DNA of 64,000 nt from Bradyrhizobium sp. ORS 278 (GTDB taxonomy: Bacteria; Pseudomonadota; Alphaproteobacteria; Rhizobiales; Xanthobacteraceae), in the NCBI RefSeq assembly GCF_000026145.1, contig NC_009445.1, positions 1,364,001 to 1,428,000 on the forward strand. Reading direction: 5' to 3'. Shown here piece after piece: positions 1,066 through 24,588 of this stretch. The notes below the pieces were generated by a model. The model was not told the origin of the DNA. It worked only from the letters and a program-made list of their open reading frames with translations, and ran no database searches. A program made the translations under genes and the position numbers. Numbering within the stretch: position 1 is the first letter of the stretch; every line of letters begins with the position of its first letter.

Positions 1066-4000
1066 ATGATGCTTCAAATCGACAAGAAGACCGACAGTCT
1101 TGGTCAGCTGTCGCTGCAGCTGGTCGTCATGCCGATCGCCGTGTCCTGCCTGCTGATCCTGGTTTCGCCGATCGTGGCCAAGGCCGGCTACTCCGATCAG
1201 ATGCCTTTCGGGGCCGGAATCATCGTTGCACTGTTGGCGCAGAGCGCGCTGGCCTGGTTCGCGTTGCAGCGGAATCTGCACCTTCCGCTGCGGCGCCTGG
1301 TCGACTATCTGCGCGAGGTTCGCAAGAGCGGCGGCGCTGCGCAGCCGCCGGAGACCGCCGGCATCCTGCGCGATATCACCGACCTGACGCGGGATGTCGT
1401 GCAGAGCCAGATCATGATCGGGCATTATGTCGTCAGCATCCACGCCATTGAAGAAGTGACGCAGGCGGTGCGCACCGTGGCACGCACCGCGAAGGCGGAG
1501 CTGACGGGAATTGCGCATGCGACATCGAAGCTGGCCGAGGATCTGAACGAGAACAGCGGGCAGCTGTCGCGCGCGTTCACCGACATCCAGAAGACCTTCG
1601 ATGCCGAGAAGGGCAAGCTCGATCGGATGCGCGAGGCGAACGTGGCCGAGGTCGAAACGGTCCGGCTCGCGCCCGTGATGTTCGAGAACGTGGTTGCGCG
1701 GTTCGAGGAGCGCGCCAATGCGCTGCTCAAATCCATCGGCAAGGATCCGCGGCTGGTGGCCGAGCTGGAGAATCTCGCGCGCGCCGTCACCTGTGCGGGC
1801 GTGGAATTGAAGGAGAACGGCGCCGGCCTCGCGGAAGTCAGGTCGGCCGTGAATTCCGTGGCCTCCCAGGTGCGTCCGACCGGCGCGATCCTCGATCGCC
1901 TGGCCGAGATGTCCGAGAGCATCGTCCAGATCCGCAACGCCGCCGGCACACGCGAAGCGGAAGCGGTGAAGGCTGCGGCCGCGGAGCTCAAGGAGACCGT
2001 CATCGATATCCGCGAGCAGACCGTGACCGAGCTTGCGAAGATTCGCGAGAGCCTGGGATCAAAGGCCACGCGCGAGGATGTCGGCGTGCTCGACGGTGCG
2101 GTCCGGCAGGCGAATCAACTCGTGGTGGATGGCCTGCGCGACATGCGGGGCCTGGTCGCGAGCCAGGCTGCGTCCGCGGTCGAGACCATCGTCGAGCGCA
2201 CCAAGGGATCGATCGCGGGCGCGATGGAGCCGGTCTTGAGCGATCTGCGCGGCGTGGCGCGGCGCGTCGAGCCGCTGGACGGCCGCATCACGGAGCTCGG
2301 CGGCTCCGTTTCGCAGCTCGCGACCACGGCAACGCTCGACCACAGGCTCTCCGAGCTGCAGCGCGCGCTTCTGCAGAAGGACGCGACCAAGCTGCCGCTG
2401 CCGAGCGCGGACGACATGGCCAATCTCTATTCGGTGCTGTCGCATATCGGAGCGCAGCTCGATGCGGTCAGCTCCCGGGTCAAGACGGACGCCGTCATCA
2501 TCGATGGCCTGCAGCTGCTGCGCGACGATTCGATCCGTCATCATGCGTCGCTCGCCGAGCTGGTCGAGCGCGCCAGCAAGACCCAGCAGGAGAGTGCGTC
2601 GGAGACCCACCTCGTCGTGGCCAAGCAGCTGGAGAACATCGAGGTCCAGATCGCCTCCGTCGAGCAGCGCACGGTGGGACTTGATGGCTCGCTCGTCGAG
2701 ACCGGCCGCACCTTGCAACGGCTGTCCGAGGCGCAGTCGGCGTCGCTGGCCGACAGCCGCGAGCGGCTCGCCCGCGTGCAGGACGAATTGCTGCAGCGCC
2801 TCGATATCGCCGGCGAGCTGACGCAGCTCCTGCAACAGGGCGCGTCGACCAGCGAGGCCGTTCGGCTGCTCGGCCAGCAGGTCGTCCGCGCCACCGAGGC
2901 GCAGGAGCACGCGGTCGGAGCCATCATCGCCGACAGCGATGCCAAATGTGAGCGGCTGTCGGCCCGGGCGATGGAGTCGCGCGCCGGATCGGAATCGGCG
3001 TTCCTCAACCTGCTGTCGCGGATCGAGGGCAGCCTGACCTGCGTCTCGGACGGCCTCAACGCCGTCGACGCGACGTCGTCGCGGATCGCGCACTCTCTGG
3101 AGCAGAACCGGGCGTTCCTCGAGCAGATCGAGATCGTCCCGCGCTTCGACAGGCTGTCTCAGGAGCTCGCTCTGCTGTCGCGCGACCTCGCCGACAGCCG
3201 GCGGCTGTCGGAAGCCCGGGTCGACAGCATGAGCCAGGAGCTCGGCGACCATGTCGCGGAGGCGTTGCGCAGGCTCGCAGGGCTTGCCGCTGGTGTCGCC
3301 GAGCAGGCGCAGACGCTGGATCGGCTGTCGTCGGCGCAACTGCAGCCGATGCTCGCCGCGGCACAGACCATTCAAGGTCGCCTTGGTGAGCTTGCCGAAC
3401 GTCTCGGCGGCTCCCCGGATGACGACGTGAATCGCATGCGGCTGCACACGATCGAGCAGACGCTCGGGCAGATCACGCATCTGCTTGGGCTGGTCGAGCA
3501 ACAGCTCGGTCTCACATCGCGCGGCGTCGCCGACATGGCTGGCGAGCTCGGCAAGGCGCTGACCCAACAGGAACGGGTGGCCAGCGCGGTCAAGGATGAG
3601 GTCCGCCTGGTCGATGAGCGTCTCGCCGCGCGGATCGACGACGGCCGCGCGGCGTTCGACGGGGGGTTGGCGCGGATCGATCAGCGGTTTGCCGCAGTCG
3701 ACGGCGTTGCGCAGGCGGTCGACGAGATCGCCGGTCTGCTCCGGGCCCATGATGTCGCAACGACCGCGCTGCAGGCGGACATGCAGGCGCTTGCGTTGCG
3801 CGTCGAAGACAAGGTCACCACCAGCGCGTCGGACGTCGTCACCAACTGCTCCAGGCTGGTCGGCGGGCTGGAGCGGCAGACGGACGAAGCGGTCACCCGG
3901 CTCATGAATGCGATCCTCGCGGCCCGAGCGGCCGTGAGCGAGGGGCAGGCCAGACCATCCGATGCCCAACCCGCATTCGCGATGGCCCTCGGCCCGCAGC

Positions 4001-5880
4001 TGGCCGATGTCGGCAGCCGGCTCGACATCGTGCTCGACCGCCTCGACGACCAGCTGCCACATCAGCTCGATGGCCTCGTCGAGAACCTGAGGCGTGATCA
4101 GTCGGCCTTTGCCGGCCGCGTCGATCAGATCATCGACAGGCTGCAATTGGTCCACACCGCGGTCGCTGAGCTGGCAGGCCGTGCGAACGCGGTCGACAGT
4201 GCCGTGCAGCCGATCAAGGACGGTGTCCAATCTCTCAGCCAGGCGCAGGCCCGCATGCTGACGGATGTCTCGCGACAGGTGACAAGCCTGGCCGAGACCA
4301 TGTCCGGCATGCCGCAGGCTTTCGGGCGCCACGTGCAGCATCTTGCGGGGCAGGCGGACGTGGCGCGGATCGATAGCCGCCTCGGCGAACTGTCGGTGCA
4401 GGTGACGCGGATACTCTATCTTGCCGGCGATGATCAGAGGCCAGGCGCAACCGGTGATCTCGGGATCGGCGCGAACACGGCAATCGCCAAATATCCGCTG
4501 CTACGCGAGGTCACGCTGACCTCGGGCGGTGGCGCGATGCCCCACGCTCCGTTCGGCGCCGCCGCCGGATTGAGCGGGCGGCTCGACGAGATGCTCGATC
4601 GTCTCGAAGATGTGTCCGAGACCATTCATCGCGGCTTGGCCGAGGTGCGGACCATGCTGTCGTCCGCGACCTCCGAGCTTCAGCCCAACCTGATCGGTCT
4701 GCGGCTCGAAATCATCCGCCATCTGACGGAGATGTCGTCACGGATCGACGCGGTCAAGACGACCGATCGCGCCGGGCAGTTCGAAAGCGCGATGGCCGCG
4801 ATGGCGCGGCAGTTCGCGGACTTCAAGGACTTCGCCACTGGCGTGGCGCAAGGCAGCGTGCGCGAGGTGATGGCTGGCGTTCACGCCATTCCGTCGGGCC
4901 GCCGCGAATTGGCGGAGATATGCGATGCGATTGAGCGCCTGCAAGCAGGCGTCGAAAGCGCCGTTGCCGGACGCCAGGAGCTCACCCGCTGGTCATCGCC
5001 GGGAACAACGCTGCACCCTGTCGCCGCAGGCCATGAGTCCTCGGAGGTCGGGAGCCGGCTCGACGATATCGTGCTCCGCCTCGATCGGATCTATGACGGA
5101 CTGGAAACGCGCGAGCAGGTCTGGCCGCGGACGGCTGTTGCGCGGCAGGCGATCGAGATCGACGTCCAGCCTCTCTATGACAAGATCAGGCTGCTGTCGC
5201 AATTCGCCGATTCGGCGCTGGTCCGAACACAGCATGCCATGGCCTCGGCGGCTGATGTCGTGGCGCAGGACAATCAGAGCCGGCACGACGGCGGCGCCGC
5301 GATCGAGCAGCTCTCGCACGACCTCGCGGCCGTGCTGAGCCGGTTCGCCGAGTTCGATCGCAAGCTTCAGGCCATCGCGGGCAGGATCGAGCAGCTGCCG
5401 GCCGGTACGCGTTCGGAGGACATCGGCACGGCGTTTGTCGAGACGATGCTGGAATGCGAGGCCCGGATCGAAAGCTCGATGAGCACCGTCAGGGACGAGC
5501 TCAAGTCCTTCGGCGACCGGCTGGACAGCACCAAATCGGCGGCCGTGACGGTCGCCGGCCCGGTCGAAGCGGGCGCCTATGCGCATCCGTTGTCGCCATC
5601 CATGACGACCGTGCTCAAGCTGATGAGCGGATTCACCTCGGCGATCGAGGATCGCTTCAATTCGCTGGAAGGCCTGCTGTCGGGCCAACTCGGCGATCAG
5701 GACGAGGACGTGGTCAAGACGTTCAACGACAGCCTGGCGGCGATGCGGAAGCTGACCGACGAGTTTCTCGACATCAGCTCGGCGATCAGCAGCGAGCTGT
5801 CGTCGCATCTCGACGAGCGGCCTTCGGCCACCGGCGGCGCGGCGAAGCGGACTCCGGATCTGCGCAGGACGCGGCGCTGA
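1066..5880 (+). CDS. Giant membrane-anchored coiled-coil protein in the gas vesicle cluster
   Basis: This 1604-residue protein starts 9 bp after gvpK on the same strand. Two hydrophobic segments lie near residues 15-40 and 50-68, joined by a short loop. A basic HAMP-like linker (FALQRNLHLPLRRLVDYLRE) follows. The remaining ~1500 residues are almost continuous heptad-type helix rich in Leu, Ala, Glu, Arg and Asp. A recurring element of the form SRLDxxLDRLxD appears at least three times, near residues 985, 1170 and 1330. The layout resembles a chemoreceptor or scaffold protein, but no methyl-accepting hairpin tip is evident. I do not recognise a named family. Position suggests a role in vesicle clustering, positioning or anchoring; this is inference. 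Start could be either of two adjacent ATGs. Confidence 0.75.
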   Translation: MMLQIDKKTDSLGQLSLQLVVMPIAVSCLLILVSPIVAKAGYSDQMPFGAGIIVALLAQSALAWFALQRNLHLPLRRLVDYLREVRKSGGAAQPPETAGILRDITDLTRDVVQSQIMIGHYVVSIHAIEEVTQAVRTVARTAKAELTGIAHATSKLAEDLNENSGQLSRAFTDIQKTFDAEKGKLDRMREANVAEVETVRLAPVMFENVVARFEERANALLKSIGKDPRLVAELENLARAVTCAGVELKENGAGLAEVRSAVNSVASQVRPTGAILDRLAEMSESIVQIRNAAGTREAEAVKAAAAELKETVIDIREQTVTELAKIRESLGSKATREDVGVLDGAVRQANQLVVDGLRDMRGLVASQAASAVETIVERTKGSIAGAMEPVLSDLRGVARRVEPLDGRITELGGSVSQLATTATLDHRLSELQRALLQKDATKLPLPSADDMANLYSVLSHIGAQLDAVSSRVKTDAVIIDGLQLLRDDSIRHHASLAELVERASKTQQESASETHLVVAKQLENIEVQIASVEQRTVGLDGSLVETGRTLQRLSEAQSASLADSRERLARVQDELLQRLDIAGELTQLLQQGASTSEAVRLLGQQVVRATEAQEHAVGAIIADSDAKCERLSARAMESRAGSESAFLNLLSRIEGSLTCVSDGLNAVDATSSRIAHSLEQNRAFLEQIEIVPRFDRLSQELALLSRDLADSRRLSEARVDSMSQELGDHVAEALRRLAGLAAGVAEQAQTLDRLSSAQLQPMLAAAQTIQGRLGELAERLGGSPDDDVNRMRLHTIEQTLGQITHLLGLVEQQLGLTSRGVADMAGELGKALTQQERVASAVKDEVRLVDERLAARIDDGRAAFDGGLARIDQRFAAVDGVAQAVDEIAGLLRAHDVATTALQADMQALALRVEDKVTTSASDVVTNCSRLVGGLERQTDEAVTRLMNAILAARAAVSEGQARPSDAQPAFAMALGPQLADVGSRLDIVLDRLDDQLPHQLDGLVENLRRDQSAFAGRVDQIIDRLQLVHTAVAELAGRANAVDSAVQPIKDGVQSLSQAQARMLTDVSRQVTSLAETMSGMPQAFGRHVQHLAGQADVARIDSRLGELSVQVTRILYLAGDDQRPGATGDLGIGANTAIAKYPLLREVTLTSGGGAMPHAPFGAAAGLSGRLDEMLDRLEDVSETIHRGLAEVRTMLSSATSELQPNLIGLRLEIIRHLTEMSSRIDAVKTTDRAGQFESAMAAMARQFADFKDFATGVAQGSVREVMAGVHAIPSGRRELAEICDAIERLQAGVESAVAGRQELTRWSSPGTTLHPVAAGHESSEVGSRLDDIVLRLDRIYDGLETREQVWPRTAVARQAIEIDVQPLYDKIRLLSQFADSALVRTQHAMASAADVVAQDNQSRHDGGAAIEQLSHDLAAVLSRFAEFDRKLQAIAGRIEQLPAGTRSEDIGTAFVETMLECEARIESSMSTVRDELKSFGDRLDSTKSAAVTVAGPVEAGAYAHPLSPSMTTVLKLMSGFTSAIEDRFNSLEGLLSGQLGDQDEDVVKTFNDSLAAMRKLTDEFLDISSAISSELSSHLDERPSATGGAAKRTPDLRRTRR

Positions 5881-8041: not shown

Positions 8042-8698
8042 TTACTTCGCCCCCGAAAACAAGCCTTTGAAGAAATCGACAGCGCTCGCCGACTTTGACG
8101 GGTCGGGCGGCGTTGTCTCGGCCGCCGACGCCTCGGCCGGGCGCTCGTGAACATGTTTTGTCCGACGGTGGCCCCGCTCGGCGCTCCGGCTGTGTCGCTC
8201 CGAGCTGTCCCTGACTGTGATTGTGATCTTCTTCGATACGAGCGGCGGATCGAAGTTGAAGTGCATGCCGTCGCCCATCACGAGCTGGAGCGTATGCTTG
8301 CCTGGAGGGAGATCGATCAAGGCCTCAGTCTCACCGCCGCCATAGTGAAGATGCTTTCTGTCCTGAGGAATCGGCTCACCGGGGCTGATCGGTTCGTTGG
8401 AATCGATCAGAAGGTGATGATGACCGGTGTTGGAAAAGCTGTCGCCGGCATGCGTCACGCCCATGTTGCGCAGGCCGAAGCGGCACCAGAATGGGCTCTT
8501 CACGGTGTCGCCGTCGTCCGGGGAGATGATGTAGAGGTACGCGTCCTTGGGAGCCGTCCTGGCCTGCGCCGCTGCGTCGCTCGGCGCCAGCATGATCGCA
8601 ACGGCGAAGGCGAAAGCCGCGATCGACGCATGATACAAACATCGCCAGAACGGGCGACCGGACGGCGGCGCGGCGTGCGCGGAGCTCACACTTTTCAT
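8042..8698 (-). CDS. Secreted DUF4399-type protein
   Basis: Read from the ATG at 8698, the protein has 218 residues. A signal peptide of roughly 45 residues ends near SDAAAQA. The conserved part follows: YIISPDDGDTVKSPFWCRFG, then GHHHLLIDS, HLHYGGGETEA, and PPGKHTLQLVMGDGMHFNFD. The HHHLLID and HLHYGGGETEA motifs are characteristic of DUF4399 domain proteins, which are periplasmic and of unknown function. The C-terminus is charged and His/Arg-rich. An upstream in-frame TTG at 8779 would lengthen it. The ATG is favoured because it gives a compact signal peptide and a GGGGAG lies just upstream, although spacing is tight. Confidence 0.8.
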   Translation of the reverse strand: MKSVSSAHAAPPSGRPFWRCLYHASIAAFAFAVAIMLAPSDAAAQARTAPKDAYLYIISPDDGDTVKSPFWCRFGLRNMGVTHAGDSFSNTGHHHLLIDSNEPISPGEPIPQDRKHLHYGGGETEALIDLPPGKHTLQLVMGDGMHFNFDPPLVSKKITITVRDSSERHSRSAERGHRRTKHVHERPAEASAAETTPPDPSKSASAVDFFKGLFSGAK

Positions 8699-8877: not shown

Positions 8878-10527
8878 TCATAGCGACAGAGCGACGCGGA
8901 AGCCGTGCGTCGGATATCTCACCCGCCCATCATAGCGATCGCGGCTGCCGCTGCGGGCATAGCTCGCATCGTTCTTCCACGAGCCCGAGCGGATGACATG
9001 GAGGAAGCTCTGCTCGTCTATCCAGGCCGAGCCATCGGACGGCGCGCCCTGATAGGATTTGTGCCAGCTGTCGGCAACCCATTGGTCGACGCCGCCGCCC
9101 ATGTCGTACAGGCCGAACGGATTGGCTGGAAAGCTTCCGACCTTCATCAACTGCGGCGGCGCATCGGCCTCGTTGCAGCGGTTGCAGTTGGCCATGCCGG
9201 GGCGCATCTGATCACCCCACCAGAATTTCGTGGCCGCCCCGCCGCGCGCGGCATATTCCCATTCGGCCTCGGTGGGAAGCCGGAACGGCTTTCCGATTTT
9301 CCGCGAGAGCCAACCGAGATAGTCCCTGGCATCGTCGTAGCTGACATTGGTGACCGGATTGTCATCCGGACCACTCGTGACGTCAGTGCACGCCTTGTCG
9401 GCGACGCATTCCTTCCATTCGCCAAGCGTGACCGGGTATTTGCCGAGCGCGAACGGCTTGATCGCGACGCGGTGAGCCGGCAGCTCGGACGTTTCCGAAC
9501 CGCCCATGGTGAACGTGCCGCCCGGGATCATGACGACGTCAGGCAAGCGAATGTTGGCCGCTTCAGCACTTGGAGCTGGCGGTGCGACGGCAGGTGTCGC
9601 GTCCGCGACGCGCGTATCGCTTTGGACTTGGGCTTCGGCTCGAGCTTGCACTTGAGGTTCGACTTGAGGTTGGACCTGAGCTTGGACTTGAGCTTGGACT
9701 TGGGTTTGGACTTGAGTCGGCGGCGTCTCGCTGGTCACGGCGTCCGCGGACGCGTCTGCTGACGGGCGCGGATCGGGGGCCGTCGCGGTCGCTACGGGCT
9801 GGAGGCCGGCGACGGGCGAGGGCGGAGGTTCGATCTTCGCGCGATCTGGCAGTGGTTCGGACAGTTCGGCCGTTTTCGGCTGTGACGATGGCGCCGAAGC
9901 GGGCTCTCGCGCGAGGACGAACCACAGACCGGCGGCCGCGAGCAGCGATGCACCGAGACCTGCGGCGACGCGGGTCCAGAGCCGCGGACCGCGCTCCGCG
10001 GTAGCAGCAGCCTTGCGGAGCCGGCCGGCCAGCTTGTCGAGCCCGTGGGCCTGCCAGATCTCGGCGCGTCGCCGCGCCTCATCCGGTTCGTATTGAGCGA
10101 TCGACACGCCGGGAATGCTGCAGACGACCCGGGGCGACCCTCCGGCGCCTGGAATGGTGGCCTCGACGTCCGCGGCCTCGCAAAGGTTTGCAAGCGATTG
10201 CTTCAACGGGCCGCACATCATCAGCAGCAGGCCGCCGTCGCCATTGCTTCGTCGCTGCTGGATCTCCGGACACGACGCCTGCTCGGCGAGATGATGGAAG
10301 CTCGGGCCGCGCAACGCGTTCAGCGCGACGCGTACGACGCGGCCGCACCGCTCGCAAGGCACCGGATAGGTGACCGTGCCCAGCGCTGTCTCGCCGGCCT
10401 CGGACACTCCGGTGTGCGGCGGCTTGAGGACGTCGAGGCTTGTCATTGCGCGCGAGCCATTGTGGATCGGCCTCGCCGTTGCTTCATTGTCCCCAGGCGG
10501 TGAACGCATCCGCGAATGCGCGCTCAC
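8878..10527 (-). CDS. Membrane protein with SUMF1/formylglycine-generating-enzyme fold lacking the catalytic cysteines
   Basis: This 549-residue protein starts at a GTG with GGGAG six bases upstream and overlaps the previous gene's end by 44 bp. Domains in order: an N-terminal ~150 residues with a CERCG motif (possible zinc ribbon); one transmembrane helix near residues 188-205; a Val/Gln-rich linker of repeated VQAQ/VQPQ units near 272-308; and a SUMF1 domain from about residue 325 (VVMIPGGTFTMGG, RLPTEAEWEYAARGG, GLYDMGGGVDQWV, RYPTHGFRVALSL). Active formylglycine-generating enzymes carry two cysteines in the late CxxxxC region. Here that region reads NDASYARSGSR, so oxidase activity is not expected. 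A binding or scaffolding role in the periplasm is more likely. An in-frame ATG at 10446 is an alternative start. Confidence 0.8.
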   Translation of the reverse strand: MSAHSRMRSPPGDNEATARPIHNGSRAMTSLDVLKPPHTGVSEAGETALGTVTYPVPCERCGRVVRVALNALRGPSFHHLAEQASCPEIQQRRSNGDGGLLLMMCGPLKQSLANLCEAADVEATIPGAGGSPRVVCSIPGVSIAQYEPDEARRRAEIWQAHGLDKLAGRLRKAAATAERGPRLWTRVAAGLGASLLAAAGLWFVLAREPASAPSSQPKTAELSEPLPDRAKIEPPPSPVAGLQPVATATAPDPRPSADASADAVTSETPPTQVQTQVQAQVQAQVQPQVEPQVQARAEAQVQSDTRVADATPAVAPPAPSAEAANIRLPDVVMIPGGTFTMGGSETSELPAHRVAIKPFALGKYPVTLGEWKECVADKACTDVTSGPDDNPVTNVSYDDARDYLGWLSRKIGKPFRLPTEAEWEYAARGGAATKFWWGDQMRPGMANCNRCNEADAPPQLMKVGSFPANPFGLYDMGGGVDQWVADSWHKSYQGAPSDGSAWIDEQSFLHVIRSGSWKNDASYARSGSRDRYDGRVRYPTHGFRVALSL

Positions 10528-13500
10528 CGTCCGCTCCCTTCTCGATCGCCAGCACGGCGCGGCTGCCGCCGTTGTACACGATCGGGATATCGATCCACTC
10601 CTTGCCTTTCAGCAGCAGGACATTGCGGGTCTTGTCGACCTCATTGGCCGACAACGCGATCATGAAGAACTCCGGCGTGACCTTCGCCGTCAAGGTGGAT
10701 AGCGCCGAGCCGCGGCCGGCCTCCTTGGCCTTCATGCTGACGCCCTTCAACGAATCGACGCCGGCGTGGCTCGGGTCATCGGGCCAGTTGAATTTGACCT
10801 CCATGATGTGGCTCGCCGGCATGTCGGCCTCCTTGTTCGGCCGCAGCGATAACGTGGCCTTCATCTGTCGGTCGATCTCGACATCGCCTTTGATCGACGC
10901 CGGTACGCTGCCTGCGGCACGCTCGACCCGCCAGGTCACCTTTCCGAGAAAGCGCTTGCCGAGCGGATCCTGCGGATCCTCCTGGTACAGCACGGCATGG
11001 GAGATGATCGGCTCGGCCGCGCTCCCGGTCGTGGTGGCGTTGGCAGCCGTGGTCCTGACGTCCGGTGTCATCCGTTCGGCGGCGACCTTGTGCGGCCCCG
11101 GCTCGGCCGGCAGCGCCGCTGCGGGAGAGCCCGCATTCCACGCGACCGCGACCTGGGTCGTGACCGTGTGCCACGCTGCGGCGAGCCGGCTTGCCGCCGG
11201 TGGCCAGGAGATCGACGCGCCGACGATGGCCATCGCGACGACCGCCGCTGCGGCCATGACGTATCGCCGCAGCGAGCCGCGCGGCGGTGTGATGAGATCG
11301 TCTTGGACGGCGCGTGCGCGCTCCGCGAGCGCCGGATGCTTGATGATCTGGTCACTCTGCGCCCGCCTGGCTCGGACCCGCGAATTCCTCGCCGGCTTTT
11401 CACTCTCATCGGCGGGAGCGACGACGAATGTTCCCGCGGCGTCGTCCAGCGCCGGCGGCGCATGTGCCCCCGGCTGTCTCTCCGCAGCCGTCGTGGCGGT
11501 ACCTGTTTCGATCAAAGCCGGCGAAGATGCGCCGGAGGAGCTCGCCGCGCCGCGCAGCCAGTCGGGCGCTGGGCCAAGCACCGGCATGACGGACGGGGCG
11601 CTGTGTCTTGCGAGCGACAGGTTCTCCGCCACCGTGGCGATCTCGTCCTCCAGCGAATAGGCGGGCCGCACCACCAGGGACGAGTCCGGCGGAATGTCAG
11701 CCGTCACGCCACCGGACGCATCAGCATGTCCACCGTAAGCCGATGGCTGCAGGCGCGTGAAGGGTTGCGATGAGCTCGCCATCGGCAGCGCGACAGGTTC
11801 GTCACGGCGCGCATGCTCGCGAAGCCGGATCGTCCGGCCGGGGAACAACAGATCGAGGAGCTCGCAAAGCGCAACCTTGGGCGGCATGAGCTGGCGAATG
11901 AAGGCCGGAACGCCGCCGAGAGCGGTCGGCACGACAGGGCCCGCGGCGCCATGGCCTTGCCCAATCATCTCGTCAGCCGTCCGGTCCTCGGTCACGGCGA
12001 GAACCTTGCGTCCTCGGAGCAGGACGGTGAGCTCGCGCAAGTCTGATTGCGCGGCGTCATCGATAACGACAAGATCGAAGGCGCTCAGTCGCGCCGGCAA
12101 CTGCTCGGCGACGCGCCATGCCGGCATCAGCTGGCATGGAATGCCGTCGTGGCAGTTTTCGAGAGCTTCGCGGGCCACCTGGCGCAGCTGAAACGCACTG
12201 GGGCCGGAGCAGGTCGCGGCGATCTTTCGCCAGGCTGTCATGAACCTCGTAAACGACTGCCGAACGGCGCTGCTGGCGTTCTGGGCCAGTGCGAGATGCA
12301 TTCGCGCCACGACGACCTGCTCGAACAGCTTGCGCAGACCGGCCTCCAAGGCCACGCGCCGGTCGGACAGATCCTGCAGCAATTGCTGTTGACCGAGGCC
12401 TTCGGTCTGTCGCATCAGCACCGCCCAATTCCAGGCCATCACCCAGTCCGCGAGCAACACCGGATCGCCGTCAGCGGTCGCGGGCTCGGTCTTGATCCGC
12501 CCGGCGAATGCATCCGCTCCGGCTTCGGCGATCGCCTGATGGACCTCGTTGATCAGCTCGATGTCCTGGCGACGCTCGTGCAGGCGCTGCAACCAGCTGC
12601 GAACGGCACTCCAGCGCGACTCGAGGTCTTGTGCCTCGACGTCGTCGCGGCCGATCTGTGACAGCACCTCGGCGTCGACCCGGACCTTGATCGCACCGCA
12701 GTCTTGAAACAACGCGTTCAGCCGCGTGAGCTCCTTGCGCTGCGTTCCGACGCGAGCGGCGATGCGCCTGATCGTAGACGCCAGCGCAGTCATTCGGCGG
12801 CCGTCGTCCATCAAGCGGGCGATCTCGCCGTCCGCCAGCGACAGCTTCGACGCGGCGGATAGCACATTGCGCTTGGCCAGCGTCGCGGTGACGAGTGCGA
12901 CCTCGACGCTCCTGACGATGCGGTCGTAGCCCGTGAGCCCATGCAGGGAATCCTGCGCCGGAGAGGGCACGCCGATCTCCGCTGCCAGCGACCGCCATCG
13001 CACGTCGAGCGAATGCAGGTGGCGCCGCCATGTGAGATGATCGCGGACATGCGCCCAATCGGCGGCGCCATTGGCCGGGAAGCCGGCCACCTTGATCGTG
13101 TCCAGCGTCTGCTTCAACGCGCGTCCGGAGAGCGAGAACGGCGCGAAGCGCCTTTCGCCGGCCGCCAGCCGCTCGACCGCTCTCATGAGCTCCTCGCTGG
13201 CAAACGCGTCCTCGGGCACGTCCACGGGCCTCACGAGGAAGTCGGCCCGTCGCGACAACATGGACGACGCGTCGCGGGCAAAATCGATCAGGATGCCGCT
13301 CTCGACGCCGATCTCGCGGGACAGCGCGCCGATCGGCGACAATCTTGCAAGCCACGGCTCGTCGGCAATCACCTGATGCGCGGCGGCCAGCGCCTCGAGA
13401 TCGTCCGCGAGTCTGTCCGCGCCGTCCGGCGCGAGCATCTCGACCGCTGCGCCGGCCAGCCGGCGGTCGCCGCTGTCGTCTTGAGTGTGCGGCGCGACCG

Positions 13501-15418
13501 GCTGCAGATCCCGGTGCAGACGCGCCAGCGCCGCGGCCTCGGGCACGCTCGCCATGTCCGGCAGGGGGGCATCGACATAGCGGAGATCGTCAGCGAGTCG
13601 GATCCGCGCGGCCCGGGCCTGATCGACCGCCGCAACGATCAGATCCGTCTCGCTCAAAAATCGCCGCGGCCGATCGGCGAACCAGGCGTACGCGTCTCGA
13701 TCGGCGATCAAGCCGGCCAGCGCCTCGAGTGGCAGGGCCGCTCCCTCGGAGCGCAGCATCATGCTGCCGGCGATGTCAGCGACCTCTTCATCAAGGCCGG
13801 CGATCTCGTGGCTGGTCGCGAGGATGTCGCGCTCGAGCTGATTGACGTGCTCGGCCTGATCATGCAGCTCGGTCGTATCGATGATGGAGAGCAGCCTGTT
13901 GACCACGCTCTCCGCGTGCTTCAGCACGTCCTTGTCGGAGCCCGTCAGGTCGACCGTCAGCTCGCGGACAGCGAAAGGCAGTTTGTCGGCGAGGAGCGAC
14001 AGCGCCAGCTCGTTGCGAGACACGACGAGCACGCGCAGCCCCAGCGCGAGATGGTGACAGACAACGTTGGCGATGGCGGCGGTGCGGTCGGCCGCATCTG
14101 CGCCCTTGACCACAAGTCCGTCCGACCTCTGAAGCTGGCGCACCATCTCCATCTGGTCCGAGTTCGTCGGCAGCGGGAAAAACAGATCGCCGCGATCGGC
14201 GGCCATCTGCGCCGCGGGCGCGATGTCTATCGGATCACCGATGACGCCGGAGAGTCGCCGCCGTGCGCCGTCATTGAGATCATGATCCGATGCCCCAAGC
14301 AGCAGATGGGTCATTGCGGCCAGGCAGCCCTCATTGCCGGGCATGTAATCCAGCGCGCGTTTCAGGCGCTTGATGTCACGCAGCAACAGGGCGTCGGAAC
14401 GCGGCCGTGCGAAGATGACCCATCGGTCGGAGACGACCAATTGCTCGCTTTCCTCGGGCAGCAGCAGGGCCGAGTCCGGCATCGTCGGGCAGTAGATTCC
14501 GTGCGGATCCAGCTGTGAGCCGATCGCGCTGAGAATGGGCTCGAAGCTCGCGGGTTGGAACGGCGACAGCTCGGCGCCGCGCTCGAGCAGCTGCTCGGCC
14601 GTGTGGCCCGCAAGCCTGGCTGCCGGCGTGAGGAGCTCGAACGCCTTGAGATTGGCCGTCGCCGCAACCATGCGCGGTCGGATCCTGATCTCGGAGTCGG
14701 CGTTGTCGAGCAGTTCGATCTCGACGAGACGTTCGAGCAGAGGGAGCTCCAAGTCGCCCCCGTGGCGCCGCCAACGGGAGACCCCGATCCCCCACACGAT
14801 CTCGCAACTCGAATCGATGCGCCCAGCGCTCGTTGCCTTGGCCAGCTCGCACAGCCGCTGATGCAGCGCGATGGTCCGGCGGCGGGGCCGTTCGGCGGTC
14901 GCCCAGATCGTCCAGGATCCGGCGAGGTAGCGTTCCAGACGCTCGACGACATCCGGGCGCTGTTCGAGGTGCAAACGAATGGTCCAGAGCCCGGCAAAGG
15001 TGGAGGACTCGTCGGCCAATGTGCAATGTTCGGCGCGCGCGTGGCCTGCTGCGATCAGCCGGTCCTTCTCCCCGGTCGGCACGGTGATCGTCACACGTTG
15101 TCGAACCAGCGGACGACGATCCGGGTCCGACGGCACAACGATCCACATCGTCAGGTCGGGCTCGATCTCGGGCGGATCGACGGCGATCAGCCGCTCGACC
15201 GCGAGCCAGACAGGACCATCCGCATCAAACGTGTTGTGGGTGACGCCGGGCAGGTCTTCCAGTTCGTGCTGATGGAAAGAAAAGCATTGTCCGCCGGCGA
15301 GCTGGTGGTCGGACAGACGACTGACAATGCCGGCGTCGCGCAGGATCGTCTCGGTCAGCTGACCAAGCACGTTCTGCAACGGCGCGACCGCCGACTCCAG
15401 CCGATGGACAGCGTTCAT
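10484..15418 (-). CDS. Membrane-anchored protein with a degenerate superfamily I helicase core
   Basis: This 1644-residue protein begins at an ATG preceded by GGAGAGG. Residues ~1-400 resemble the N-terminal region of large AAA/SF1 (Dna2/DUF4011-type) helicases. At ~416-480 the helicase start is recognisable: PTNSDQMEMVRQLQ, then VLVVSRNELALSLLADKLP. The phosphate-binding loop between them reads GADAADRT instead of GPPGTGKT, so the Walker A lysine and glycines are gone. A Walker B-like VVIDDAAQSD lies near residue 1117, and FPGRTIRLREH near 1220. The second RecA domain is then cut short. A transmembrane helix follows (~1383-1403) and a ~175-residue C-terminal domain ending KGADGERAFADAFTAWGQ. 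ATP hydrolysis by the usual mechanism is unlikely. It overlaps the SUMF1 membrane gene. Confidence 0.8.
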   Translation of the reverse strand: MNAVHRLESAVAPLQNVLGQLTETILRDAGIVSRLSDHQLAGGQCFSFHQHELEDLPGVTHNTFDADGPVWLAVERLIAVDPPEIEPDLTMWIVVPSDPDRRPLVRQRVTITVPTGEKDRLIAAGHARAEHCTLADESSTFAGLWTIRLHLEQRPDVVERLERYLAGSWTIWATAERPRRRTIALHQRLCELAKATSAGRIDSSCEIVWGIGVSRWRRHGGDLELPLLERLVEIELLDNADSEIRIRPRMVAATANLKAFELLTPAARLAGHTAEQLLERGAELSPFQPASFEPILSAIGSQLDPHGIYCPTMPDSALLLPEESEQLVVSDRWVIFARPRSDALLLRDIKRLKRALDYMPGNEGCLAAMTHLLLGASDHDLNDGARRRLSGVIGDPIDIAPAAQMAADRGDLFFPLPTNSDQMEMVRQLQRSDGLVVKGADAADRTAAIANVVCHHLALGLRVLVVSRNELALSLLADKLPFAVRELTVDLTGSDKDVLKHAESVVNRLLSIIDTTELHDQAEHVNQLERDILATSHEIAGLDEEVADIAGSMMLRSEGAALPLEALAGLIADRDAYAWFADRPRRFLSETDLIVAAVDQARAARIRLADDLRYVDAPLPDMASVPEAAALARLHRDLQPVAPHTQDDSGDRRLAGAAVEMLAPDGADRLADDLEALAAAHQVIADEPWLARLSPIGALSREIGVESGILIDFARDASSMLSRRADFLVRPVDVPEDAFASEELMRAVERLAAGERRFAPFSLSGRALKQTLDTIKVAGFPANGAADWAHVRDHLTWRRHLHSLDVRWRSLAAEIGVPSPAQDSLHGLTGYDRIVRSVEVALVTATLAKRNVLSAASKLSLADGEIARLMDDGRRMTALASTIRRIAARVGTQRKELTRLNALFQDCGAIKVRVDAEVLSQIGRDDVEAQDLESRWSAVRSWLQRLHERRQDIELINEVHQAIAEAGADAFAGRIKTEPATADGDPVLLADWVMAWNWAVLMRQTEGLGQQQLLQDLSDRRVALEAGLRKLFEQVVVARMHLALAQNASSAVRQSFTRFMTAWRKIAATCSGPSAFQLRQVAREALENCHDGIPCQLMPAWRVAEQLPARLSAFDLVVIDDAAQSDLRELTVLLRGRKVLAVTEDRTADEMIGQGHGAAGPVVPTALGGVPAFIRQLMPPKVALCELLDLLFPGRTIRLREHARRDEPVALPMASSSQPFTRLQPSAYGGHADASGGVTADIPPDSSLVVRPAYSLEDEIATVAENLSLARHSAPSVMPVLGPAPDWLRGAASSSGASSPALIETGTATTAAERQPGAHAPPALDDAAGTFVVAPADESEKPARNSRVRARRAQSDQIIKHPALAERARAVQDDLITPPRGSLRRYVMAAAAVVAMAIVGASISWPPAASRLAAAWHTVTTQVAVAWNAGSPAAALPAEPGPHKVAAERMTPDVRTTAANATTTGSAAEPIISHAVLYQEDPQDPLGKRFLGKVTWRVERAAGSVPASIKGDVEIDRQMKATLSLRPNKEADMPASHIMEVKFNWPDDPSHAGVDSLKGVSMKAKEAGRGSALSTLTAKVTPEFFMIALSANEVDKTRNVLLLKGKEWIDIPIVYNGGSRAVLAIEKGADGERAFADAFTAWGQ

Positions 15419-16320: not shown

Positions 16321-18153
16321 ATGGTCTTGATTAGCTGTGTCGGGAGAAGCGCGGATCGCTTCGCGTCTTCACACCACGGCGCTCCGAGTGTCGGGAGGAG
16401 CAACCGTTCGCTTCGGAGCCGCAGCGCGCTGCCATCGTATCTGCTTGCCGCAGTGTCGACGCTGGCGCTGAGCGCGGCGGCACAGGCCGCCGACGACGGA
16501 TCGTCGCGATCCGCGGACAGCGCTGCGGTCAAGGCGCTGATGGCGAAGATCGAGTCCATGGAGCAGCGTATCAACACGCTTCAGGTCGAGCTCAAGGATG
16601 CGAAGGCGAAAAAGCCTGCCGGCGTCGGGCAGTCCGCGTCGCTGGCGTCCAGGGCGCCGTCAGGTGCCGTTGCGTTGACGGGCGCCAAGGATCTGCGCGG
16701 CGGCGCGATGAAGGCGTCCGACAATGCGCCGTCCATGTCGAAGTCGGTCGGCAATGCCATGGCGCTCGCGGATTCCAAGGACGTCGATGCCGCCAAGCCA
16801 AAGACCGCCGATGCACCGCAGTCGTCAACTCCGGCATCCCGGCTGGCGGCGGCGTTCGCCGATTCGGACCCCAAGCCGAAGTTTCTGCCGGCAGCCGATT
16901 TGAAGGCTCCTCCGCCCGCGTCTAATAAGGACCTGTTCGGCGCGGCGCCATCGCCGGTGCCGGGGATGCGGATCGGCATGTATGGTGAGATCAAGCTCGG
17001 TTCGCAGCAGAATCCCGCGGCCAACGGCCAGTGGCAGAACGGCTTCGATATGGCGCGTCTGGTGCTGCTGCCGACCTATCAGGTCAACGACTACATCACC
17101 TTCAATGCCGAATTGGAATGGGAGCATGGCGGTACTGCGTTCGACAATGACGACAAGCTGCATGGCGCCGTCGAGGTCGAGCAGGCCTTCTTCGACGTCA
17201 AGTTCAACGATCACTTCACCTTGCGCTCGCCGGGTATCGACCTGATCCCGATCTCGTTCACCAACCTGTATCATGAGCCGACGCTGTTCTACAGCGTGCA
17301 GCGGCCCGAGCTCGCCAACGGTCTGATCCCGACGACCTGGTACGCTCCCTCGGCCGGCTTCTACGGCAAGATCGTCGACGGCTTGAACTATCAATTCCAG
17401 GTCAGCCAGAGCGCCGAGGACTTCGGCGACGATTTCGATCACCGCGGCGACAACGGGCACATCATATCCGGAGGCTATGCGGGCGGCATCACCGGTGGCG
17501 AGGCGCTCGCGTTGGCGAAGGCCCCGGTCGGCGACTTCCGGCAGATGAGCAACGAGCTCGCGTATACGCTGCGTCTCAGCTACACGCCGTCGTTCCTTCC
17601 CGGCTTCGCCGGGAGCTCGGCGATCTACTATTCGCCGAACGTGACACCACGCGGCGCCTACGCCACCCAGCCGGATGGCACGGAGACGCCGCTCGGCAGA
17701 AACGCAATGACGATCTTCAACACCGAGGCCCGATATCGCGTCCCGAACACCGGACTGGAGCTGCGCGGCGAATATGCCTATGTGCATTTCTCCAACCCCG
17801 AGAATCTGAGAGCCAACAACGATCTCGACGACGCGAACAATGTCGGCAAGAGCATGTGGGGCTATTCAGGCGAGATCGCCTATCACTTCAGAGCCCCGAA
17901 CGACTACGACATCGTGCCGTTCTATCGCTACACCCGGCAGAACTTCCAGACGTCGGGCATGCTCGGCTCCGATCTGACCAATGGACTGAACAATCTCACC
18001 GGAAGCGGCGACATGACGTTCCACGATGTCGGCCTCGCCATCTTCCCCAACCCGAGCCTGGTCTACAAGATCAACTACACCAAGGTCATCGACCACAGCG
18101 CGACCGGTGCGATGTCCGACCGCATCCTCGCGGGTGTCGGCTGGCTCTGGTAA
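16321..18153 (+). CDS. Outer membrane porin with N-terminal coiled coil
   Basis: This 610-residue protein starts at an ATG with GGGGAGG about eight bases upstream. A long basic N-region leads into a signal peptide ending SAAAQA near residue 56. A short coiled coil (MAKIESMEQRINTLQVELKD) and an Ala/Lys/Ser-rich linker follow. The beta barrel starts near residue 218 (MRIGMYGEIKLG). Alternating strands run to the C-terminus, which ends in the aromatic GVGWLW expected of outer membrane barrels. VEVEQAFFDVKF and LIPISF...HEPTLFYSVQRPE resemble the phosphate-selective porin O/P-like group. Substrate is unknown. It precedes the type II secretion operon, with a hairpin between them, so it may be a separate transcript. 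Confidence 0.8.
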   Translation: MVLISCVGRSADRFASSHHGAPSVGRSNRSLRSRSALPSYLLAAVSTLALSAAAQAADDGSSRSADSAAVKALMAKIESMEQRINTLQVELKDAKAKKPAGVGQSASLASRAPSGAVALTGAKDLRGGAMKASDNAPSMSKSVGNAMALADSKDVDAAKPKTADAPQSSTPASRLAAAFADSDPKPKFLPAADLKAPPPASNKDLFGAAPSPVPGMRIGMYGEIKLGSQQNPAANGQWQNGFDMARLVLLPTYQVNDYITFNAELEWEHGGTAFDNDDKLHGAVEVEQAFFDVKFNDHFTLRSPGIDLIPISFTNLYHEPTLFYSVQRPELANGLIPTTWYAPSAGFYGKIVDGLNYQFQVSQSAEDFGDDFDHRGDNGHIISGGYAGGITGGEALALAKAPVGDFRQMSNELAYTLRLSYTPSFLPGFAGSSAIYYSPNVTPRGAYATQPDGTETPLGRNAMTIFNTEARYRVPNTGLELRGEYAYVHFSNPENLRANNDLDDANNVGKSMWGYSGEIAYHFRAPNDYDIVPFYRYTRQNFQTSGMLGSDLTNGLNNLTGSGDMTFHDVGLAIFPNPSLVYKINYTKVIDHSATGAMSDRILAGVGWLW

Positions 18154-18165
18154 CGGGCAAAGAGG

Positions 18166-18189
18166 GGCCGCTGTCTGCAAGCAGCGGCC
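18166..18189 (+). terminator. Hairpin after the porin gene
   Basis: A perfect 8 bp stem (GGCCGCTG / CAGCGGCC) with an 8-base loop lies 13 bp after the porin stop codon. No run of T follows, so it is at best a weak or processing hairpin separating porin from gspD. Confidence 0.4.
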
Positions 18190-18276
18190 ATTCCTCGCTA
18201 GGCAAGCAACGATCCGGGACGAACGTCAGGGCATCTCGTCCCGGAGTCGCAATGCAGGACGTCATCGGTAGATCGG

Positions 18277-20619
18277 GTGGGCGGACGAGTGAGTGATTTA
18301 GCTGAGATGGGCCCGGGTTGGCTGCGATTTCGCACACTCGCGACGCTGACCTGGCTGGCGTTGGCGCTCGGGGGGTGCAACCCTGCGACGCTCGGCAACG
18401 ACAATCGCGGTGACGACGTGCTCGACAAGGTTGGGCGCCTCGATCTTTCTCCGCGCTATCCGAGGCAGGTCATGCCGGAGCAATCGCCGGCCGCGCGGCG
18501 CGCCAGGGCGGAAATCTATGGCGGCACTGACGATCCCAGAGACGCGCGCGCGGAGGCACCGGCAGCCACGCTTCCGGTGCAGCAGGTGGCCGCCCATTCG
18601 CAGGCCGTCGGCAACGGCTTCGAGCTGAATTTCGAGAATACGCCGATTGCGACGGTCGCCAAGGTCGTGCTCGGCGACGTGCTCGGTGTGGGCTATACGA
18701 TCGATCCGCGGATCCAGGGAACCGTGAGCCTGTCGTCGGTGCGTCCGGTGCCGAAGTCGGACGTGGTCTACGTGCTCGAGAATGCGCTGCGCCTGGCCGG
18801 GACAGCCCTGGTGCGCGACAATTCCGGCTATCGTCTGATCCCGTTGGGCGAGGCGGTCGGCGCGGGCAATGTGGACGCGCCCGGCGCGACGGCGGAGCCC
18901 GGCTACGGCATCACGATGCTTCCGCTGCAATACGTCTCCGCGCCGACGCTGTTGAAGCTGCTCGACAGCTTTGCGCTCAAGCCCGGCACCGTGCGGGCGG
19001 ATCCGGGGCGCAACGTCCTGCTGATCCAGGGAACAGGGGCCGAGCGGCGAACCGCCGCCGATGCGGCGCTGAGCTTCGATGCGGACTGGATGCGCGGTCA
19101 ATCTGTCGGGATCTTTCCGATCGAGAACGGCAATCCGGAACCGATCGTCGCCGAGCTCGAGAAGATCATGGATACGGGCGACAGCGGCCTCGGCCAGAAC
19201 ATGGTCAAATTCCAAGCGGTCAACCGCATGAACGCTGTCATGGTGATCAGCCGCAAGCCCGCACTGCTGCGTACCGCGGAGACCTGGATCAAGCGGCTGG
19301 ATACCGGCAGCACGCTGCGCAACAGCGTTCATGTCTACCGCGTCAAATACGGCGAGGCGCGGCAGATGGCGCGGGTGCTGAACGAGATGTTCACGGGCAA
19401 TTCCAGCGCGGTCGCCGACGCGTCGTCGACGGACCTCGCCCCGGGATCTGGATCTTCGTCGAGCTCGAGCAGCGAGCGGCTGTCGGCCGCCGGAACGACA
19501 GCGTCCACCGGCTTCTCGGGCGCGTCTCAGGCCAACATCGGCGTGGTTGCCAATCGCGGCTTCAATGGCACGCCGCCGCCGACACAGGTCGGCCTCGATG
19601 GCGGCTCTGAGGCGCGCGCGTCCTCCGCCGGCGGCAAGCCGCTGATGGATGGCGTGCGCATCACGCCCGACGTGGTCAACAACACGCTGCTGATCTACGC
19701 CGACCGGGAGAACTACCGCATCATCGAAGCCACGCTGCGCCAGTGCGACCGGCCGCAGCTCCAGGTCGCGATCGATGCCACGATCGCCGAGGTCACCCTC
19801 AATGACAATCTGACCTATGGCGTGCAGGCCTATCTGACCAGCAAGAATCTCGGCTTGCGGCCCGATCAGGGCTCGCTCCTCAACACCACATCGACCTCGG
19901 CACCGGCGACCGTGGCGTCGGCGGCGGGAACGATCACCAACGCGTTTCTGAGCCGCGCCTTCCCGGGTTTCAATTTCCTGATCGGATCGGAATCGCAGCC
20001 GAGCGCGATCCTGAGCGCCCTGCATACGGTCACCGATGTGAAGGTGCTGTCCAATCCCTCGCTGGTGGTGATCGACAACCAGGCGGCGACGTTGCAGGTC
20101 GGCGATCAGGTGCCGGTCTCGACCGGCAGCGCCACGGTGCTGACGACCAACAACACGGTCGTGAATACGATCGACTACCGCAACACCGGAATCATCCTGC
20201 GGGTCGCGCCGCGGGTGAACGAGAACGGCAATGTCCGGCTGGAGATCGAGCAGGAAATCAGCAACGTTTCGCCGCAGACTGCCAACAGCCTGACGCCGAC
20301 GGTGGCGCAACGCAAGGTCAAGAGCTCGGTTGCGGTAGCCAGCGGTCAGACCGTGCTGCTGGCCGGCCTCATCAGCGAAACTCATCAGGGCACGCGTACC
20401 GGCTTGCCGGGCGTCGACCAGATTCCGGGCTTTGGAGATCTGTTCAGCAACAACGACCGCAGCCGAGGACGCACCGAGCTGATCATCTTCATCCGTCCGC
20501 AGATCATCCGTGACGGCACCGATGCGCATTACGTCGCCGAGGAGCTGCGCTCGAAGCTGCGCGGAACGATCAAGCCGGTGTCAACCAGCGCGCTCCAGGC
20601 GCAGCGGGCCAGCCGATGA
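18277..20619 (+). CDS. gspD: Type II secretion secretin GspD (lipoprotein)
   Basis: This outer membrane channel of the type II secretion system is 780 residues long, normal for the family. A lipoprotein signal (LALALGGC) lies near residues 28-35. N0 follows (NGFELNFENTPIATVAKVVL), then N1-N3 modules with VYRVKYGEARQMARVLNEMF and a Ser-rich insertion near 385-400. The secretin core contains VKVLSNPSLVVIDNQAATLQ and GDQVPVSTG, ending with LIIFIRPQII. The chosen start is a GTG; in-frame GTG at 18289 and ATG at 18307 are equally possible because no clear ribosome binding site distinguishes them. The lipid anchor suggests the secretin may reach the outer membrane without a separate pilotin; this is inference. 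It overlaps the next gene (ATGA). Confidence 0.95.
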   Translation: MGGRVSDLAEMGPGWLRFRTLATLTWLALALGGCNPATLGNDNRGDDVLDKVGRLDLSPRYPRQVMPEQSPAARRARAEIYGGTDDPRDARAEAPAATLPVQQVAAHSQAVGNGFELNFENTPIATVAKVVLGDVLGVGYTIDPRIQGTVSLSSVRPVPKSDVVYVLENALRLAGTALVRDNSGYRLIPLGEAVGAGNVDAPGATAEPGYGITMLPLQYVSAPTLLKLLDSFALKPGTVRADPGRNVLLIQGTGAERRTAADAALSFDADWMRGQSVGIFPIENGNPEPIVAELEKIMDTGDSGLGQNMVKFQAVNRMNAVMVISRKPALLRTAETWIKRLDTGSTLRNSVHVYRVKYGEARQMARVLNEMFTGNSSAVADASSTDLAPGSGSSSSSSSERLSAAGTTASTGFSGASQANIGVVANRGFNGTPPPTQVGLDGGSEARASSAGGKPLMDGVRITPDVVNNTLLIYADRENYRIIEATLRQCDRPQLQVAIDATIAEVTLNDNLTYGVQAYLTSKNLGLRPDQGSLLNTTSTSAPATVASAAGTITNAFLSRAFPGFNFLIGSESQPSAILSALHTVTDVKVLSNPSLVVIDNQAATLQVGDQVPVSTGSATVLTTNNTVVNTIDYRNTGIILRVAPRVNENGNVRLEIEQEISNVSPQTANSLTPTVAQRKVKSSVAVASGQTVLLAGLISETHQGTRTGLPGVDQIPGFGDLFSNNDRSRGRTELIIFIRPQIIRDGTDAHYVAEELRSKLRGTIKPVSTSALQAQRASR

Positions 20620-21143
20620 GGGGGCGCTCCACGTTCTTCGTTGCCGTCCTGGCGCTGTGTCTCGGCATGACGACGGCCGATGCCCGGCCACGTGGAGACG
20701 GATACACGGCGTTCGCGCGGGGGGATTATGTCCGTGCCGCGGCCCTGCTCGCGCCGCTGGCGGAGCGCGGACATCCGCGCGCCATGACGGCGCTGGGCTA
20801 CATGTACGACAACGGCTTCGGCGTTCCGCAGTCGTATGAGGCGGCCGTCGAGCTGTATGGCGGGGCGGCGGAGAGCGGTGAGCCGGCGGCGCAGCACCTG
20901 CTCGGGCTGAGCTATGACAAGGGGCACGGCGTGATCCAGGATCACGTCCTGGCCTACAAATGGCTGAGCCTCGCAGCTGCCGCCGCGCCGCTACGCCAGC
21001 GCGACCCTTACCTGCGAATTCGCAACGCTGTCGCGTTCAAGATGTCGGCCGATCAGATCATCGAGGGTCAGCGGCTTGCGCTCGCGTGGCGGCGCGCACG
21101 GCCTGGCGGAGCTGGCTTAGCTGGCGCCGCGGCAGGTTTGTAG
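20616..21143 (+). CDS. Secreted Sel1-repeat protein inside the type II secretion operon
   Basis: This 175-residue protein has a signal peptide (about 23 residues, ending ADA). Two to three Sel1-like repeats follow: AMTALGYMYDNGFGVPQSYE and AAQHLLGLSYDKGHGVIQDH, each with the LG-Y--G-GV---- pattern. Sel1 repeats form TPR-like solenoids that bind proteins. Its ATG overlaps the gspD stop, so it is co-translated with the secretin. A periplasmic helper or assembly factor for GspD is a reasonable inference. Sel1 genes are not a standard part of gsp operons. Confidence 0.8.
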   Translation: MRGRSTFFVAVLALCLGMTTADARPRGDGYTAFARGDYVRAAALLAPLAERGHPRAMTALGYMYDNGFGVPQSYEAAVELYGGAAESGEPAAQHLLGLSYDKGHGVIQDHVLAYKWLSLAAAAAPLRQRDPYLRIRNAVAFKMSADQIIEGQRLALAWRRARPGGAGLAGAAAGL

Positions 21144-22869: not shown

Positions 22870-22873
22870 GCCG

Positions 22874-24088: not shown

Positions 24089-24094
24089 CGGAAG

Positions 24095-24586: not shown

Positions 24587-24588
24587 CG

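Follow-up and report, generated by a model that had tools for sequence, protein, structure and literature searches.

A predicted membrane-anchored pseudo-helicase and its relatives in Bradyrhizobium sp. ORS 278

Superfamily 1 (SF1) helicases such as Upf1, Ighmbp2 and Dna2, for which structures have been solved, are soluble and active enzymes with a complete ATP site and two RecA domains, and motifs V and VI are part of the usual nucleic-acid-binding face of the second domain, RecA2. Some helicase folds have given up catalysis: AddB of the AddAB complex has lost its catalytic motifs, and yeast Utp25 is reportedly a pseudohelicase. PriA of Deinococcus radiodurans is reported to be a protein without ATPase or unwinding activity that binds DNA (PMC4504706). 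In this study, we analyzed a 64,000-nucleotide stretch of the photosynthetic strain Bradyrhizobium sp. ORS 278 (positions 1,364,001-1,428,000 of the single 7,456,587-base contig NC_009445.1), referred to as the window. One of its genes (10484..15418, minus strand) encodes a 1644-residue protein, the “window protein”, that is unlike the Upf1, Ighmbp2 and Dna2 enzymes, as an incomplete helicase core is joined to a transmembrane (TM) helix and a C-terminal domain (CTD) of envelope type. An earlier note, made from the letters of the DNA, had interpreted this protein as a membrane-anchored pseudo-helicase, and our analysis supports that interpretation.

The open reading frame (ORF) runs for 4.9 kb without interruption, as had been noted, and the motifs then taken to mark an SF1 helicase frame all lie at the places given for them (TNSDQ at residue 418, GADAADRT at 439, VIDDAAQSD at 1118 and FPGRTIRLREH at 1192). 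Structure prediction yielded the RecA fold that was expected, namely a RecA1 of the Upf1 kind, with VIA matches to Upf1 covering residues 1-1192 of the model. Along the protein (all coordinates on the minus strand), an N-terminal domain (residues 1-410; 14189..15418), which aligns throughout with intact relatives and contains the pre-RecA1 share of the Upf1-like match, is followed by the former Walker A loop GADAADRT (residues 439-446; 14081..14104), a long, mainly helical insert within RecA1 (residues 501-1090; 12149..13918; judged from the secondary structure of the model and common to the intact relatives), the former Walker B motif VIDDAAQSD (residues 1118-1126; 12041..12067) and a motif IV remnant, FPGRTIRLREH (residues 1192-1202; 11813..11845). 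The final remnant of RecA2 is a conserved helix, LEDEIATVAENLSLAR (residues 1256-1271; 11606..11653), after which come a variable linker (residues 1276-1375; 11294..11593; rich in Pro, Ala and Ser, judged from the composition of residues 1204-1375), the TM helix (residues 1387-1405; 11204..11260) and the beta-rich, predicted periplasmic CTD (residues 1470-1644; 10487..11011). The proposed fusion of the core to a membrane helix and an envelope domain therefore agrees with the layout that we found.

Descent of this protein from an SF1 helicase-nuclease of the Upf1/Dna2 type is well supported by comparison with its relatives. A protein search recovered 89 of them, and a second search with an alignment of distant members recovered 147; each search scored 8000 candidates, and at least 120 of the 147 were listed. 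The closest named relatives among the candidates scored were from Bradyrhizobium sp. STM 3809, ORS 375 and SSBR45G. The relatives are of two kinds, having either the architecture of the window protein or that of a full SF1 helicase with a C-terminal PF18741 nuclease (e.g. P0074). The intact helicase-nucleases (P0103-P0105 and P0107; P0074-P0076; and L022 and L023 of the same genus) have the same N-terminal domain, RecA1 and helical insert, and are collinear with the window protein over about 1270 N-terminal residues. Unlike the window protein, they still have GPPGTGKT, DEAS, GDD[RK]Q and motif VI as well as the MTES_1575 nuclease, and they carry neither TM helix nor CTD. With P0103, the closest intact relative tried, BLASTP gave 606 identities over 1300 positions (47%; 1053 bits), a similarity much too high to be due to chance, placing KGADAADRTAAIANVV of the window protein opposite QGPPGTGKTHTIANII of P0103 without gaps. 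In this way GADAADRT faces GPPGTGKT, VIDDAAQSD faces VILDEASQSD and FPGRTIRLREH faces FPDKLVILKEH. Homology stops at about residue 1271, within RecA2. That this domain is cut short, as previously claimed, is thus correct, although the cut is at about residues 1271-1275 rather than directly after FPGRTIRLREH, as the LEDEIATVAENLSLAR helix aligns to intact RecA2. The column pattern of this helix is kept in subclades A and B (see below), and the fusion point lies just after it.

Scans started from its sequence alone recognized the window protein poorly. A Pfam scan of it returned no family, the C-terminal nuclease PF18741 included, and the best hit in a PDB sequence search had an E value of 1.6, while the NCBIfam antiphage_ProA model gave 3.6e-10 (37.9 bits; cut-off 1500) and PADLOC PDC-S37 gave 2.9e-6. 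The same two models gave 4e-73 (246.7 bits) and 1.8e-70 with P0074, and 3.3e-68 (230.4 bits) and 5e-63 with P0103. Since these ProA scores are far below the NCBIfam cut-off of 1500, a defence role of the intact relatives themselves is a lead, not a result. Among 60 genomes of the genus Bradyrhizobium, a full-length match of the window-protein kind was found in one, the source genome itself. Three others (G008, G015 and G043) gave helicase-length matches that are not of this full-length kind, and the two loci examined (L022 and L023) carry an intact P-loop.

Judged by its motifs, the loss of catalysis is family-wide. In an alignment of 148 proteins, made up of 145 search matches, two intact proteins of the genus and the second copy from the source genome, GxxxxGK[ST] is present in none of the 102 CTD-bearing proteins in which the site is covered, the window protein included, versus 41 of 44 without a CTD, the exceptions being P0073 and P0106 (short, C-like) and P0145 (GPPGTGTS). 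Orthologues with an intact GxxGxGKT loop, named by the earlier note as the sign of a mutation confined to one strain, were thus not found among these 102 proteins, and the spread of the Walker A loss across the family rules out such a local mutation. Motif VI was found in 0/103 CTD-bearing proteins and in 40/45 others, and the nuclease motif in 0/103 and 39/45, respectively. Collinear orthologues in two independently sequenced records (L006 and L007) rule out a frame or assembly artefact.

For the columns of subclade A, to which the window protein belongs, and of the intact proteins, 71 of 73 CTD-type rows were used (P0071 and P0073 left out). Walker A is invariant in all 16 intact proteins and replaced in all 43 subclade A proteins, [DE]R standing in place of GK in every one of the 43. 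The catalytic Glu of Walker B, present in 16/16 intact proteins, is Asp in 39 of the subclade A proteins, His in one and Glu in three; the window protein has DDAA, without the catalytic Glu of DExx. The P-loop of subclade A is more variable than its surroundings (entropy 0.99, flanks 0.53 and 0.56) and that of the 16 intact proteins nearly invariant (0.04, flanks 1.59 and 0.93). The Walker A loop is thus destroyed, with no Lys left, as the earlier note held; it is not “without glycines”, since the first loop glycine persists in GADAADRT. These exact letters are the form taken in this strain by a commoner subclade pattern, G-x-x-G-x-[DE]-R-T. Of what defines an active SF1 helicase, the window protein has the RecA1 fold and lacks Walker A, the catalytic Glu and a full RecA2 with motifs V and VI. 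It has what defines a pseudohelicase, namely a helicase fold, lost catalytic motifs and purifying selection on the gene. From this we infer that it has no ATPase activity.

Trees were built from 87/89 proteins (without P0071 and P0073), from 79/89 proteins and from 128 of the 148 (without 12 named rows and without proteins no longer than 1400 aa). In all three, the nested position of the window-protein kind agrees with its descent from helicase-nucleases. The 128-protein tree contains five subclades: A (38 rows, with the window gene), B (14, with the paralogue of the same genome, nested in A), C (20), D (9) and E (14). Support is 100/100 for each of B, C, D and E and for A plus B, as well as for the CTD-bearing proteins together with P0103-P0105 and P0107. 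The CTD-bearing proteins by themselves were supported at 100/100 in the 79-protein tree, which lacked these four. A single fusion event is the simplest reading but is not proven, because support falls to 73.7/89 when the four are included, and the tree leaves the branching order of subclades A-E unresolved.

The column of the catalytic Lys holds Arg in 38/38 A, 14/14 B and 7/9 D rows, Lys in 19/20 C rows, and Thr, Ala or Met in 14/14 E rows. The preceding Gly column holds Asp or Glu in 38/38 A, 13/14 B, 8/9 D and 7/14 E rows, and Ala or Thr in 20/20 C rows. The Walker B Glu is kept in 18/20 C rows (17/20 by the count made for DExx) and 12/14 E rows and in none of the 14 B or 9 D rows; the 38 A rows read DD (32), DE (3), DH (1), AD (1) and ED (1). 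By these column states each subclade has its own internally consistent site, apparently dead or weakened. At least two separate losses of the Lys are likely but not proven, since one loss with a return in subclade C would fit these states too. Separate losses of the Walker B Glu seem likelier, because this residue is present in most of subclade C and in 3/43 subclade A proteins. In subclade E (P0114, P0116-P0122 and P0124-P0129, all CTD-bearing), the former P-loop has a very different, TxSCxxTI-like form, and the Walker B Asp is replaced by Gln or Glu; P0124 comes from a metagenome-assembled genome (MAG) of the Xanthobacteraceae.

The gene is maintained and is not decaying. Against the STM 3809 orthologue, the ratio of nonsynonymous to synonymous substitution (dN/dS) was 0.24 for the whole gene, far from 1, which bears out the earlier suggestion that the degeneracy is under selection. 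Values were 0.14 for residues 1-400, 0.27 for residues 501-1100, 0.20 (0.17-0.24) for the core, 0.13 for the P-loop block, 0.10 for the Walker B block, 0.38 for the RecA2 remnant, 0.82 (0.51-1.34) for the linker and 0.08 for the CTD. Against the MAG orthologue, for which estimates are rougher since synonymous divergence is 0.85 overall, they were 0.32 for the core, 0.11 for the P-loop block, 0.10 for the Walker B block, 0.48 for the RecA2 remnant, 0.64 (0.42-0.88) for the linker and 0.21 for the CTD. The variable linker provides an internal contrast to the constrained core and CTD, and the same procedure yielded 0.08-0.25 for genes nearby. All of these are counting estimates on two pairs rather than a codon model over many orthologues.

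The TM helix of the window protein (hydropathy 2.07) has an excess of Lys and Arg on its N-terminal side. A hydrophobic stretch ahead of the CTD is present in 103/103 CTD-bearing proteins, with the same excess in 102, from which the helicase part is predicted to be cytoplasmic and the CTD to lie beyond the inner membrane. Hydropathy by itself is not specific, as 6/45 CTD-less proteins also have a stretch of at least 1.6. The CTD, a weak match of whose model to the fold of IalB or MotY-like periplasmic domains was found, is by its matches a member of a widespread envelope protein family. In the source genome it recurs in a 546-aa TM protein (L004, after the TM helix) and, behind a caspase-like domain, in a 484-aa protein whose start resembles a signal peptide (L005). 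The match of the query included the CTD region in all 60 genomes of the genus (weakest in G051, 2.6e-9), and a match to the query was found in 7/16 genomes of other families of the same order. In L025, L027, L028 and L029, the CTD gene adjoins a neighbour interpreted as purA, a name that we assign from general knowledge. These purA-adjacent envelope proteins (with L004) and the caspase-CTD protein share the CTD, which in L004 and L029 follows a TM helix, and have no helicase part. A caspase-like protein (PF00656; L026:7170-8624) that carries this CTD and begins like a signal peptide may be a periplasmic caspase homologue.

Two further genes follow the pseudo-helicase gene on the minus strand. 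The second (8878..10446; ORF open back to 10527) encodes 522 aa, with a zinc-ribbon-like (CxxC-type) N-terminus, a TM helix and a domain of the FGE-sulfatase fold (PF03781, 1.3e-52). The third (8042..8638; ORF open back to 8779) encodes a predicted exported DUF4399 protein of 198 aa with an export-signal-like start (PF14347, 4.3e-36). This order was found at four of four loci, i.e. the window, L006 (STM 3809), L007 (MAG) and L024 (the paralogue); with start sites from a simple gene caller, 31-37 bases separate the first two genes, and the DUF4399 gene lies 9-279 bases further downstream. The intact helicase loci L022 and L023 have no FGE-fold or DUF4399 neighbours. Among 8000 candidates scored, the N-terminal 200 residues of the FGE-fold partner had 19 hits, one of them the query and the other 18 homologues, and in 8 of these 18 the longest contig equals in size that of a subclade A pseudo-helicase, which suggests, without proving, that the two share a contig. 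The FGE domain itself has matches in 58/60 genomes of the genus.

The FGE-fold partner matched the PvdO (3e-41) and GldK (3.7e-21) models, all below their cut-offs. GldK is a structural envelope protein. With GldK/GldJ/PvdO-type proteins the partner has the FGE fold in common, and it differs in its zinc-ribbon-like cytoplasmic N-terminus and TM helix. The RSGSWK[NK] stretch (RSGSWKNDASYARSGSRD), presumably the place of the FGE catalytic cysteine pair near the C-terminus, contains no Cys at any of the four aligned loci, so the pair that marks a catalytic FGE is missing there. In the two loci examined from other genomes of the genus (L044:793-2403 and L046:1492-3093), FGE domains related to that of the partner, with 53% and 62% identity, sit behind a TM helix. 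These proteins have an adenylate-cyclase-like N-terminus (NCBIfam LipJ, 1.9e-14, for L044), which hints at signalling, and may represent a transmembrane cAMP receptor family. FGE-sulfatase domains are reported to be joined to 33 bacterial metacaspases in a published survey (PMC3501461). Taken with the occurrences described above, this suggests that both extracytoplasmic modules of the operon, the CTD and the FGE domain, are placed on varied partners across the membrane in these bacteria.

Most likely, though with moderate confidence, the window protein is a domesticated dead helicase-nuclease that now serves, without needing nucleotide, as the cytoplasmic scaffold of an envelope complex spanning the membrane; it probably acts as an envelope scaffold or sensor and not as an enzyme. 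Comparison with its relatives shows that an ancestral intact helicase-nuclease was cut in RecA2 just after motif IV, and that what lay beyond the cut, motifs V and VI together with the MTES_1575 nuclease, was replaced by the linker, TM helix and CTD, the last presumably taken from the envelope protein family of the same bacteria. The ATP-handling residues were then lost by different paths in the five subclades, with the fold under selection throughout. In the mode of action that we propose, the first 1270 residues form a large binding platform on the cytoplasmic side that works without nucleotide, and one helix spans the inner membrane. In the periplasm, the CTD would assemble with the FGE-fold partner and the DUF4399 protein. 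The complex may retain or detect something in the envelope and pass its state to a cytoplasmic partner via the pseudo-helicase and the zinc-ribbon-like domain of the FGE-fold partner.

A more specific version, which we regard as possible but doubtful, is that an envelope gene captured a phage-defence-type helicase-nuclease and made of it a nucleotide-free transmembrane receptor or scaffold, in which, in subclade A, the invariant [DE]R pair fills the phosphate pocket and locks the RecA core. As the sister subclades seem to have reached a dead site by other routes, it would be the membrane-bound helicase fold, and not its chemistry, that selection has kept. That the [DE]R pair fills the phosphate site from within and locks the core is a guess.

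Alternatively, the dead core might grip DNA or RNA at the inner membrane, either for anchoring or for sensing incoming phage or plasmid DNA. RecA1 is strongly conserved, pseudohelicase PriA is reported to bind DNA without ATPase activity (PMC4504706), and the source family resembles candidate anti-phage proteins in the ProA and PDC-S37 matches of P0103, though far below the NCBIfam cut-off. However, motifs V and VI are gone in all 103 CTD-bearing proteins, the operon partners are envelope-like, and the loci examined are not obvious defence islands, so that we consider membrane tethering of nucleic acid rather unlikely. The net charge of the core, tried as a sign of lost nucleic-acid binding, was uninformative.

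An autoinhibited or very slow ATPase, whose altered loop still binds nucleotide and switches by binding rather than hydrolysis, would account for the fact that Arg and no other residue replaces Lys in 43/43 subclade A proteins, that 42/43 keep the Q-motif Gln, and that subclade C keeps the Lys, mostly the Glu, and GDDKQ. Yet the Asp or Glu at the preceding Gly in 43/43 subclade A proteins should repel phosphate, no adjoining stretch in that subclade varies as much as the loop (entropy 0.99 versus 0.53-0.56), which is almost fixed in intact relatives (0.04), the Lys site of subclade E is occupied by Thr, Ala or Met in 14/14, and the RecA2 half of the ATP site is missing. Residual nucleotide switching is therefore improbable. 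Decay of a gene that happens to remain open, to which the loss of catalytic motifs in ways that differ between subclades might point, is ruled out to a near certainty by low dN/dS (core 0.20, P-loop 0.13, Walker B 0.10, CTD 0.08), the 4.9-kb open frame, the conserved operon and five full-length, long-diverged subclades.

The source genome carries a second pseudo-helicase operon (L024:8324-13540; C1 ~6,549,800-6,555,000; 45% identity), again followed by FGE-fold and DUF4399-like genes, and all five long chromosomes open to such a check had one copy of each of the two paralogues. Divergent from the operon in the window, a porin-like gene and then type II secretion genes (secretin, GspE, further gsp-like and PilN-like) occupy 16321-28174 (plus strand). 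The porin-secretin order is kept in L006 and L007, and type II secretion genes lie beside the subclade A operon at the window and L006. A general link between operon and type II secretion is not supported, since the paralogous L024 instead has upstream two genes interpreted as a membrane-fusion/efflux pair. At the loci examined, nothing pointed to a phage or a defence island as the source of the present locus, no systematic test having been made. Elsewhere in the window, 1066-5880 (plus strand) encodes a protein of 1604 aa that is predicted to be exported and for which no Pfam family exceeded its cut-off, and a 1251-aa open frame at 49236-52991 (plus strand), antisense to the carbamoyl-phosphate synthase large-chain gene (49167-52631, minus strand), is probably an artefact of high GC content.

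If the favoured interpretation, a domesticated envelope scaffold, holds true, a defence-like gene has been turned into a stable envelope part. The names “helicase” and “AAA family ATPase” given to these proteins at NCBI are unsupported by their sequences. The family offers a graded living series, from intact proteins (GPPGTGKT, DEAS) through subclade C (AAPGPAKT, DEAS, GDDKQ) to A, B, D and E, in which the site is gone, so that the order of changes from enzyme to pseudo-enzyme is open to direct study. In bacteria that form nodules on Aeschynomene, it also supplies tractable proteins with which to ask what purpose a helicase fold can serve without ATP.

No report of a membrane-anchored pseudohelicase or of the window-protein family was found in our searches, which were limited to open-licence papers, and we know of no inactive helicase that was halved, fused to a membrane helix and relocated to an operon of envelope genes. 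Pseudohelicases as such are already on record. Like the window protein, PriA, Utp25 and AddB have a helicase fold with lost catalytic motifs that is selected for a non-enzymatic role. To our knowledge, these three are not membrane proteins. Their partners and roles have stayed near the ancestral ones, whereas the window protein appears to have moved to another compartment and into another operon.
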